Source: an uncultured bacterium | GTDB taxonomy: Bacteria; Patescibacteriota; Patescibacteriia; CAIQCM01 | Length of the DNA stretch: 17,323 nt | Assembly: GCA_903870305.1 (NCBI GenBank) | Contig: CAIQCM010000157.1 | Coordinates: forward strand, 1-17,323 | Direction of reading: 5' to 3' | Shown: positions 11,983 to 16,216 of the stretch, one piece after another | How positions within the stretch are numbered: the stretch's first letter is position 1 | Layout: every line of letters starts with the position of its first letter | The notes under the pieces: generated by a model | Database searches by the model: none | What the model saw: the letters and a program-made list of their open reading frames with translations, nothing else | Told to the model about the DNA's origin: nothing | Made by a program: the position numbers and the translations under genes

Positions 11983-13150
11983 AATGTTTCAGCGTCATCC
12001 AGACCATGCCCGCCGTCATGAGCGCGGCGGCGGTCAAGTTGAAAGAGACGCCGGCGATCGATGCGCCGGGAACGCGAGCGAATAATTTAACGACCGAAAT
12101 ATCATAATTGGTGAAGAACAAGGTTATGGCGCCGCAAAAGGCCGTAAGCGGCGAAATGATCGATGAAACGATCGCGCCAAGAAAGCCGACCAGCATGGTT
12201 GGCGCGACGAACGGCAGGAGAAGCACATTGGTCGGCAGCGCCACGAGCGAGAATTGCCCGAACGCCGCGAGCGCCACCGGCAAAGTCGCCAGGGTCGCGG
12301 CCAAGGTCCCGGCAACCGTGCCGCGCAGATCATAGCGGTCGGGCAAAAACTTAACGAACGGCGCAAAAAACGGCGACAAATAAACCATGCCCAAACAACC
12401 TGCGACGGAAAGCAAAAAACCGACGTCCGTTGCCATGACCCTTGGAGAAACCAATAACATGAGCGCGGCGGCATAGGAAACGGCGCGGCCCTGCGCCGAA
12501 GGGCGGCCGCTCGCAAATGCCACATTCGCAAAAACGGCCATGACCGCCGCGCGCACGAGCGAGGCGCCGACGCCGGTCATAATAACGAAGGCGATGACCG
12601 CGACGGTCGTGGCGACGAGGCGGGTCATCTTTTGCAAACGAAAGAACATAAAAATTGAATTGACCCACTTGCCGATCGAACTTATATTCCAGCCGGAAAG
12701 CGCCATCACGTGCGCCGTGCCGGTGGCAACGAAGGCGGCCTTGAGCGCGGGCGATCCGGCGCCGCCGCCAACGAGCAAGCCGTCGAGAAATCCCGCGTGC
12801 GGCTCGGGGAGCATGCGTCCCACCGCGGCAATGAGCCACGCTTTTGTTGCCGCAAGCGCGGGAAAATATTTGAGCAGATCAACGACATCGCCGCGACTCG
12901 ATAAATAACGAGCGACGCCGGCAAATATCAAACACGCGGCGACCGTAAGCATCCGCGTATTCTTATCTTTTAAAATAAAGCCGGATGCGAGCGCGAACAA
13001 AAAACAACCGAACATTGCGGGCTGTGCCCAGGCGGCATACGACGCCGGCGCGAAGACCGTCACCGCGACGATCCCGGCAATGAACGATCCGACCCAGACG
13101 AGCAACGATGCCGATGGAGAATTTGAAATTTTATCGAGCCATGGACGCAT
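11954..13150 (-). CDS. comEC: ComEC/Rec2 competence membrane domain, lacking the nuclease-like domain
   Basis: A membrane channel for taking up single-stranded DNA in natural transformation. It is a 398-residue protein with about ten hydrophobic segments. EPHAGFLDGLLVGG (about 116-130) and TGTAHVMALSGWN (143-155) are the diagnostic ComEC motifs. The chain ends at the last membrane helix (MTAGMVWMTLKHYDD); the metallo-beta-lactamase domain is on the next, overlapping gene. The ATG at 13150 was chosen because MRPWLDKISNS leads straight into the first helix; the in-frame ATG at 13195 would lie inside the IS110 left end. The IS left end lies only about 30 bases upstream, so the original promoter has probably been displaced. 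Confidence 0.92.
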   Translation of the reverse strand: MRPWLDKISNSPSASLLVWVGSFIAGIVAVTVFAPASYAAWAQPAMFGCFLFALASGFILKDKNTRMLTVAACLIFAGVARYLSSRGDVVDLLKYFPALAATKAWLIAAVGRMLPEPHAGFLDGLLVGGGAGSPALKAAFVATGTAHVMALSGWNISSIGKWVNSIFMFFRLQKMTRLVATTVAVIAFVIMTGVGASLVRAAVMAVFANVAFASGRPSAQGRAVSYAAALMLLVSPRVMATDVGFLLSVAGCLGMVYLSPFFAPFVKFLPDRYDLRGTVAGTLAATLATLPVALAAFGQFSLVALPTNVLLLPFVAPTMLVGFLGAIVSSIISPLTAFCGAITLFFTNYDISVVKLFARVPGASIAGVSFNLTAAALMTAGMVWMTLKHYDDLHQKEN

Positions 13151-13193
13151 GAAATTTACCGTTGTTACAATATGCCTGTCATATAAAGGACAC

Positions 13194-13350
13194 ATCCCCT
13201 TAATGGGGGTATCCTTGATCGAGGGAACGGAACAATGCTGTCAATGGCTTCGAGCCACGCGCAATGCCTTTTCGTTCCCTCTTGATCGGGACTCTCCGGA
13301 ACTCCGTTATCGGGTTAGGCCTTGAGCCTCTTTAACCAATATGACAGGGA
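13194..13350 (+). ncRNA. Candidate IS110 bridge RNA
   Basis: It follows the known order of a 5' stem-loop, target-binding loop and donor-binding loop. The 5' stem-loop is ATCCCC, loop ttaat, GGGGGT. The first large stem is GAGGGAACG/CGTTCCCTC (13221-13229 with 13273-13281). It encloses CTGTCA (13238-13243, equal to the left target half), hairpin TGGCT-tcg-AGCCA, and CGCAAT (13260-13265, complement of the right target half ATTGCG). The second loop holds CCGTTATCGGGT (13304-13315), which matches 10 of 12 bases of the right end of the element (14432-14443), then hairpin AGGC-cttga-GCCT, then CTTTA (13330-13334), complementary to TAAAG of the left end (13184-13188). The exact 5' and 3' ends are estimates. 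Confidence 0.8.
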
Positions 13351-13397
13351 ACGGCGAGATCGACCGATCGTTTAATAATTTTTAACGACATTTGAAT

Positions 13398-14438
13398 ATG
13401 TCAAAACCCGAATCGTCCGCGATCTCCGCTATCGGCATCGATGTTGCAAAAGCGACGTTGAGTGTCTGTTTCCGTCGACCGAAGGCCGACGAATCTGCAC
13501 TTACGCTTCGCAACACCGATGTCGACATCAGAAAGAAATTATTGCCATGTCTTGATGGCTTCACCGGGCGTATCGTCATGGAATCGACCGGTCACTATCA
13601 TTGGCGCGTCGCCCTCATTTTGACTGAGGCCGGATACAAGGTTTTTGTCGTTAATCCCATTCTAGCGAAACAGTACACCTCGTCAAACATTCGAAAGGTC
13701 AAAACCGATCCGGCTGACGCCTCAGGACTCGCTCGCATGGCCGAGCTTGCCGACAATTTGCCGCGTTGTTTTGCTCTCACGAGAGAAACCCTTGATCTGC
13801 GGAAAAAGCTCTCCGTTATCGCTTCTATTGCCAAGCAGATGCAGGCTTTAAAGGCGACACAACGGCAGCTTACGGAAGGTCACGAGATACTCCGAACCGG
13901 TGCGTCAAAGGGTGAAGACGCTCTGGACGCAACGATTAAGCAGCTCACAAAAACAGCCGACCTTTTGGAAGATGAATTTGTGAAAGAGTCAGCCGCTCTT
14001 GAAACTGATTCGACCGCCGCCGCGCTTATCGACGGCATTCCCGGCGTTTCGCCATTTGTCGCACACCTTGTGCTTCATTGGTTGGCCGTCTTGCCGGACA
14101 TCACGGCGAAGTCATGGATCGGTTATGCCGGCCTCGATGTTTCGTCTCGCGAGAGCGGCTCGTGGCACGGACGATGTCGACTCACCAAGCGCGGAAATTC
14201 TTTTCTTCGTCGTCGACTATATAGTGCGGCTTGGGGCGCAACAATGTCCGACGAGAACTTCCAAATATACTACAAGCAAATGCGCGTCGACGGACGACCT
14301 CATGTTGAGGCCTTGCTCATCATTGCCAGAAAGATCGTACGGATTATGTTTAAACTTCTAGAAACGAAGAAAAAATACGACCCGTCGCTATTCACTTTTG
14401 GCAAAAAAACGAAACTTACTCTTGACGCCGCCCTTTAA
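13398..14438 (+). CDS. IS110-family transposase (DEDD recombinase)
   Basis: 346 residues. The N-terminal RuvC-like DEDD domain shows IGIDVAKATL with Asp15, VMESTGHYHW with Glu62, and KTDPADA with Asp104 and Asp107. A helical middle region (about 130-200) leads to the C-terminal Transposase_20-type domain with IPGVSPFVA, GYAGLDVSSRESGSWHG and KRGNSFLRRRLYSAA. Ser253 in RESGS is the likely catalytic serine. All expected residues are present and the frame is open, so the element may be active. The ATG at 13398 is preferred to an in-frame TTG at 13392; there is no clear Shine-Dalgarno site. Its 3' end carries the -35 half of the promoter that would form in the circular intermediate. By this family's biology the protein acts with the bridge RNA encoded just upstream. 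Confidence 0.96.
   Translation: MSKPESSAISAIGIDVAKATLSVCFRRPKADESALTLRNTDVDIRKKLLPCLDGFTGRIVMESTGHYHWRVALILTEAGYKVFVVNPILAKQYTSSNIRKVKTDPADASGLARMAELADNLPRCFALTRETLDLRKKLSVIASIAKQMQALKATQRQLTEGHEILRTGASKGEDALDATIKQLTKTADLLEDEFVKESAALETDSTAAALIDGIPGVSPFVAHLVLHWLAVLPDITAKSWIGYAGLDVSSRESGSWHGRCRLTKRGNSFLRRRLYSAAWGATMSDENFQIYYKQMRVDGRPHVEALLIIARKIVRIMFKLLETKKKYDPSLFTFGKKTKLTLDAAL
14422..14427 (+). promoter_or_regulatory. -35 half of a split junction promoter in the IS110 right end
   Basis: TTGACG lies near the 3' end of the transposase gene. When right end and left end are joined through the AT core, it is followed by exactly 17 bases and then TATAAA (core T plus 13183-13187). The promoter would exist only in the circle or a tandem joint, pointing into the bridge RNA. 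Confidence 0.75.
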
Positions 14439-14443
14439 CGGGT

Positions 14444-14553
14444 ATTGCGAGGAGGCCGAAGCCGACGAAGCAATCCCCTCGGAATATCACCATGGTTGCT
14501 GTATTTATGAGATTGCCGCGTCGTTCGTTTCGACTCACTCCTCGCAATGACGA
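14444..14553. repeat. Palindromic intergenic repeat, copy 1, cut by the IS110 element
   Basis: About 110 bases with inverted ends: ATTGCGAGGAGGCCGAAGCC at the left and, reversed, TCGTCATTGCGAGGAGTGAG at the right. Copy 2 is at 16103-16216; the ends and much of the left half (through cggaatatcaccat) are the same, the middle differs. The first bases of the left tip are on the other side of the IS110 element (CCTGTCAT at 13175-13182). The repeat has no open reading frame. Confidence 0.88.
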
Positions 14554-14576
14554 TAATTGATGCTCAGTTTTAAACG

Positions 14577-16102: not shown

Positions 16103-16216
16103 CGTCATTGCGAGGAGGCCGAAGCCGACGCGGCAATCTCATCGGAATATCACCATAAGCGTATAAACCACTAGATTGCTTCGTCGTTCGCATCGGCTCA
16201 CTTCTCGCAATGACGA
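16103..16216. repeat. Palindromic intergenic repeat, copy 2, intact
   Basis: Begins CGTCATTGCGAGGAGGCC and ends with the inverted CTTCTCGCAATGACGAT, giving a long imperfect palindrome with a variable centre. It shares GCGAGGAGGCCGAAGCCGAC and TCGGAATATCACCAT with copy 1. It lies between rpsT and holA, which converge. The intact tip CGTCATTGCGAGG defines the sequence that IS110 entered in copy 1. Confidence 0.9.

Follow-up and report, generated by a model that had tools for sequence, protein, structure and literature searches.

A candidate bridge RNA with readable target and donor guides in an IS110-group insertion sequence of a plausibly patescibacterial genome

The window analysed here, the whole stretch of 17,323 nucleotides from an uncultured bacterium, carries an IS110-group insertion sequence (Table 1) that, judged from its sequence, very probably moves by bridge-RNA-guided recombination (probability about 0.9). 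We regard it as a clear further example of a published mechanism and not as a new mechanism. The element would excise as a circle, the joined ends of which form a sigma-70-type promoter, and by inference from IS621 this junction promoter would drive synthesis of a bridge RNA encoded in the left end. Of the two loops of this RNA, the first is predicted to pair with the two strands of an intergenic palindromic repeat (CCTGTC-AT-TGCGAGG) and the second with the circle junction (AACGGGT-AT-ATAAAGG), and the recombinase would cut and exchange strands at the AT core. The element, its insertion site, the guides, the kept stems, the promoter sequence and the catalytic residues are read from the DNA itself, while transcription, RNA binding, the order of strand exchange and the activity of this copy are carried over from IS621. 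Patescibacteria is a plausible host lineage of the element, and the labels of its two nearest named relatives are Paceibacterota and Kaiserbacteria.

Table 1. Features of the element, its predicted RNA and its surroundings (window coordinates).
Feature	Position	Strand	Remarks
IS110-group element	13183..14443	+	1,261 bp without the core; ends agree with relatives
Core AT	13181-13182 (left), 14444-14445 (right)		common to both flanks
-10 box TATAAA of the predicted circle-junction promoter	13182..13187	+	core T plus left end
Predicted bridge RNA	13194..13369	+	start inferred from -10 box; end uncertain, 13358-13369
5' stem-loop ATCCCC-TTAAT-GGGGGT	13194..13210	+	minimum free energy fold
Target-binding loop with outer stem	13210..13291	+	arms about 13210-13229 and 13273-13291; fold and arm exchange
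Left target guide TGCTGTCAA	13236..13244	+	positions 1-9, pairing at 3-8
Right target guide CGCGCAAT	13258..13265	+	pairs 7/8 with ATTGCGAG
Possible handshake guide GCC toward the left donor	13266..13268	+	one G-T and two Watson-Crick pairs; analogy with PMC11208158
Left donor guide ATCGGGTTA	13309..13317	+	6/9 with AACGGGTAT
Donor-loop inner hairpin GGC-CTTGA-GCC	13318..13328	+	read from sequence; inner pairs in RNAalifold of alignment A4
Right donor guide CTTTA	13330..13334	+	complement of left-end TAAAG
Core complement AT, then putative handshake guide GACAGG	13341..13348	+	complementary to target positions 7-2
Donor-loop stem, 3' arm CGGCGAG	13352..13358	+	pairs with CTCTCCG at 13292-13298; perhaps to 13369
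IS110 DEDD recombinase	13398..14438	+	346 aa from ATG 13398; Pfam PF01548, PF02371
-35 box TTGACG, right end	14422..14427	+	17 nt from TATAAA after end joining
Subterminal inverted repeat CCTTTA, right copy	14432..14437	+	left copy TAAAGG at 13184-13189
Rest of the palindromic repeat hosting the element	14444..14555	+	BLAST matches to same-genome repeats

The element interrupts one member of a dispersed family of palindromic repeats. The left flank ends in CCTGTCAT (13182) and the right flank starts with ATTGCGAGG (14444). The joined flanks agree without gaps at 120 of 124 bases with an uninterrupted repeat in this genome (locus L006 on contig C132 of genome G000), which confirms the insertion site that an earlier note on this DNA had reconstructed, CCTGTC-AT-TGCGAGG with core AT; the target sequence of this site is CCTGTCATTGCGAGG. 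The motif GTCWTTGCGAG occurs 35 times in G000, including 34 copies of GTCATTGCGAG, among which we counted 11 inverted pairs from the occurrence list (spacing 85-118 bases). The window contains the palindromic repeat a second time, at 16104-16214, where it forms an inverted pair spaced by 100 bases.

The recombinase matches DEDD_Tnp_IS110 (PF01548, E 3.6e-18) and Transposase_20 (PF02371, E 2.9e-12), both above the curated cut-offs; an alternative TTG start at 13392 is possible. Among solved structures, phmmer relates the protein to IS621 (8wt6, E 2.8e-18) and ISCro4 (9t56, E 4.6e-18). Residues D15, E62, D104, D107 and S253-G254 align with the catalytic residues of these two proteins. Those of IS621 are named D11, E60, D102, D105 and S241-G242 (PMC11208158), where a two-residue offset in the 8wt6 chain numbering is our own interpretation. 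The catalytic D, E, D, D and the serine are invariant across five aligned relatives.

A search of the genome collection yielded 57 loci, in three of which alone the RNA was read, namely L011 (Paceibacterota, 54%), L012 (Kaiserbacteria, 52%) and L013 (Thiomicrospira, 36%). A draw from the phylum provided L215 (genome G431) and L216 (G610), and guides and stems were compared in these five elements and the window (n=6). L012 and L216 are without a right end and stand outside the counts for the right target guide, left donor guide, promoter and subterminal repeat. Guide analysis also excluded 22 viral loci and the distant L007-L010, and the more distant L217 (G667) and L273 (G1116), which have other target sequences, are outside the guide, stem and promoter counts. 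L273 lies in a palindromic site, and the region upstream of its IS110-type gene contains TCCGCTAG, 8 bases that by eye recur in the element's own left flank and are complementary to the right one; the RNA of L273 may thus be readable as well. In L217 (minus strand, about 1140-1230), the IS110 relative appears by eye to lie directly downstream of an apparent tRNA gene.

Among the sampled genomes, elements of this type are rare. At E up to 1e-50, they were found in one of 380 genomes of the class (the window's own) and in four of 379 genomes of the phylum draw (the own genome, G431, G610 and the distant G667). At 1e-60, the order of G381 yielded three of 397 genomes (G380, G381 and the distant G1116), and the classes of G431 and G610 yielded one of 13 and one of 49, respectively, both being already-known elements. 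Of 7,997 candidates scored from the protein collection, 231 reach E 1e-60. Matches to plasmids and phages were all below 60% identity (best row 33%), and pattern scans of viral contigs returned 100 and 20 stretches. A composite motif run over the locus sequences recovered only L011, L013 and the duplicates L092 and L094; since neither L012 nor the window's own copy (L001) was recovered, the motif is insensitive and its result is no proof of absence.

Joining of the two ends is predicted to create the circle junction AACGGGTATATAAAGG. In all four elements with both ends, TTGACN would then stand 17 nt before TATAAA, the first box reading TTGACG in the window, TTGACT in L011 and TTGACA in both L013 and L215. 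A promoter scan of the integrated region found none that uses the left-end TATAAA. The RNA start implied by the junction promoter lies near 13194, the position at which the earlier note had let the RNA begin. The 6-bp subterminal repeat CCTTTA/TAAAGG is likewise present in four of four elements, and the noncoding ends of the window's element measure 215 nt on the left (13183-13397) and 5 nt on the right (14439-14443).

The segment 13190-13352 folds better than shuffled sequences (z -3.15, 1/200 as good) into a 5' stem-loop followed by a long-stemmed target loop and a donor loop. The 5' hairpin and two loops described earlier for this spacer thus stand, while the proposed end at 13350 falls short, the 3' arm of the second stem lying beyond it (about 13352-13358). 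All four guide matches claimed at the time are present. Within the target loop, CTGTCA (13238-13243) is identical to target positions 3-8, with the left guide unpaired at position 9 and also at 1-2, and CGCAAT (13260-13265) is the reverse complement of ATTGCG. Within the donor loop, CCGTTATCGGGT (13304-13315) matches the right-end CCTTTAACGGGT at 10 of 12 positions; the left donor guide is unpaired at positions 2, 8 and 9, with both core positions mispaired. A search of Rfam 15 gave no match across 13150-13420 at E up to 1.

This mispairing of the donor guide at the core and the presence of one element copy in the genome (947,774 bases, 160 contigs) would fit a single-copy relic, a bridge RNA element that has lost its mobility. 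We consider this unlikely because the open frame, catalytic residues, ends and promoter are all intact and metagenome contigs carry a 98% identical protein (P0002). Moreover, contig C49 of the same assembly (L068, 3707-3940) equals window 13060-13182 exactly over 123 bases and then continues with TTGCGAGG and no element, a flank that may be an unoccupied allele. Past the shared left flank, C49 carries another repeat variant and a different next gene, an 827-aa frame that we take to be leucyl-tRNA synthetase. Hence, C49 may also come from a different strain, from a rearrangement or from a junction made at the repeat during assembly.

Evidence that the loops act as guides comes from the relatives. 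Summed over the six elements, positions 1-8 of the left guide give 33 matches out of 48 to the own flank (window 6, L011 6, L012 5, L013 4, L215 7 and L216 5, each of 8). Permutation of the flanks gives a mean of 28.0, and 33 is reached in 14 of 720 arrangements; for positions 2-8, a range chosen after the data were seen, 2/720 arrangements are as good. The right target guide pairs at 7 (window), 8 (L011), 8 (L013, one G-T) and 7 (L215) of 8 positions, and the left donor guide at 6, 7, 8 (two G-T) and 8 of 9 positions in the same order. The latter exhibits one co-change, CGGG in three elements and TGGG in L011. Pairing of CTTTA with TAAAG is full in four of six elements, with one mismatch in L012 and L216. 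The right target guide and the right end hardly vary and hence carry little information on co-change.

Both outer stems are kept with differing sequences in the six elements. With arm limits that we set from conserved anchors, the elements' own arms are the best of 720 arrangements for the target-loop outer stem (summed duplex energy -186.1, mean -109.5) as well as for the donor-loop outer stem (-100.2, mean -65.9). In individual elements a foreign arm occasionally scores better; for the donor-loop stem of L013, the arms of the window, L012 and L216 are lower than its own (-12.8, -14.8 and -13.0 vs -10.0). RNAalifold on the MAFFT alignment A4 recovered inner hairpins and placed the handshake segment opposite the left guide, without the outer stems. 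The earlier note had named two patterns that would speak against its reading, relatives with flanks that mismatch their loops and a spacer devoid of conserved structure. The relatives display neither, as their left guides fit their own flanks above most exchanges and both stems persist.

A different view of the same conservation is that the loops bind the recombinase only and the protein picks the target, the guides being alike since the relatives share one target repeat. Across the six elements, GTC and the right target guide hardly change, and much of the match therefore cannot co-change. However, left guide positions 2-4 and 8 vary and follow the element's own flank, with 9/18 matches at positions 2-4 (19/720 permutations as good) and 6/6 at position 8 (reached by 48/720 and alone not decisive). 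Furthermore, the closest studied homologue, IS621, is RNA-guided (PMC11208160). Target choice by the protein is thus very improbable. Counting against the guided model are the left donor guide with 6/9, the mispaired left guide position 9 in six of six elements and the left guide of L013 with 4/8, at n=6.

The four guides occur in the expected order in none of 20,000 dinucleotide shuffles and in none of 1,586 same-length pieces from the rest of the window, under criteria fixed after the finding was seen. Single matches are common in the 20,000 shuffles, where the left-target 6-mer was obtained in 1,464, the right-target 6-mer in 2,424, the left-donor match (9 of 12) in 3,054 and the right-donor 5-mer in 12,990; both target 6-mers in order were obtained in 90. 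The guide evidence is strong by its combination and by the relatives, the matches singly being not rare. That the structured spacer is instead a leader or an antisense-controlled 5' region regulating the transposase, with fortuitous guide matches, is hardly credible given the ordered set, the agreement of the relatives' left guides with their own flanks and a promoter that forms only at joined ends, even though the gene immediately follows the RNA region, single matches recur in shuffles and the ISPpu9 transposase is regulated by small RNAs and leader structure (PMC8450116).

Within the bridge RNA reading, the cores and the host repeats differ among the relatives. The core is AT in the window and L013, and L011 and L215 have TT on the left and AT on the right. 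This might result from a later base change, or target and donor cores may differ at the first base; in the second case, the left junction would keep the target's base, as allowed by top-strand exchange after position 9. In L011 and L215, position 8 of the left guide is T, and the prevailing repeat variant of their genomes is GTCTTTGCGAG (38/42 in G380, 44/51 in G431). Position 8 is A where GTCATTGCGAG dominates (34/35 in G000, 32/32 in G610, 23/23 in G382). G381 is an exception with A in the guide and in only 24/149 repeats, yet the element's own site has A. According to these counts, the guide agrees with the majority variant of the host in five of six genomes, and it fits the site of its own element in all six. 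Tentatively, and at somewhat less than even odds, we suggest that an IS110 lineage retunes its left guide to the host repeat variant, with a nearly fixed right guide and one shared palindromic repeat family. As part of this tentative proposal, the host-tuned lineage would span small-genome bacteria of the window's phylum plus a Thiomicrospira. In the Thiomicrospira genome (G382), 14 of the 23 GTCATTGCGAG copies are clustered on contig C5 (91329-97929), all in the same direction and some spaced about 68-73 or 20 bases.

In each of the six RNAs, the right donor guide is followed by AUGA(C/U), the complement of target positions 7-5, with a G-T at one position in two elements. By analogy, this segment fits a handshake guide as described in PMC11208158, and in the window the complementarity comprises six bases (target 7-2). 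The handshake segment was also considered as an independent third target guide, the window tail being complementary to the left junction over 10 nt (ATATGACAGG). We rejected this reading because L012 and L215 have tails that match the window junction just as well (10) and their own junctions over only 7 and 5; handshake complementarity beyond positions 7-5 thus does not track the target in the relatives. The longer RNA, the junction promoter, the 6-bp subterminal repeat, the handshake guides and the TT left core are additions to the earlier reading.

The element extends readable bridge RNAs to an apparent Patescibacteria lineage, and together with its relatives it provides six elements in which the guides can be set base by base against target and ends. 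With an AT core, a long right target guide and a constant donor end, the set could test guide rules beyond IS621. Among the titles listed by literature searches on bridge RNA and IS110, and on IS110 with Patescibacteria or Candidate Phyla Radiation, none concerned bridge RNAs of this lineage, and the word Patescibacteria is absent from the main text of PMC11208160. As that study covers thousands of elements, the present type may be counted there.

Among known systems, the element shares with IS1111 and its seekRNA a DEDD transposase and a noncoding-end RNA that matches both target strands, but the noncoding region described there is usually downstream (PMC11187229), whereas the present element has it upstream, like the IS110 type. 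IS1111 is marked by a bridge RNA at the right end and subterminal repeats of 7-17 bp; the window's element has a left-end RNA, a right end of 5 nt and a 6-bp repeat. Its domains, catalytic residues, long left and short right end, two-loop guides, predicted junction promoter and T as second core base are marks of the IS110 group, and so is the guide polarity, in which the left guide equals the top strand and the right guide is complementary to it. The 6-bp subterminal repeat departs from the 2-3 bp of the IS110 group, which PMC11208160 presents as a pattern with no strict limit, and we treat it as a variant.

ISPpu9, ISPpu10, ISPa11 and others insert in REP sequences (PMC1525189). Specific insertion in dispersed extragenic palindromes is common to these and the present element, but the repeat is a different one here (GTCATTGCGAG...) and the hosts are others.

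The closest parallel described is IS621 (PMC11208160, PMC11208158), with which the element shares the recombinase domains and catalytic residues, a predicted bridge RNA in the long left end with the order 5' stem-loop, target loop and donor loop, a core ending in T, handshake positions after the right guides and insertion in extragenic palindromes. Both papers describe the junction promoter of IS621, which has its counterpart at the joined ends here. In contrast to IS621, the core is AT instead of CT, the right target guide comprises about 8 nt instead of 4, the subterminal inverted repeat measures 6 bp (CCTTTA/TAAAGG) instead of 2-3 bp, the gap inside the right donor guide is larger and the target is another repeat family, and the two proteins are distant (phmmer E 2.8e-18).
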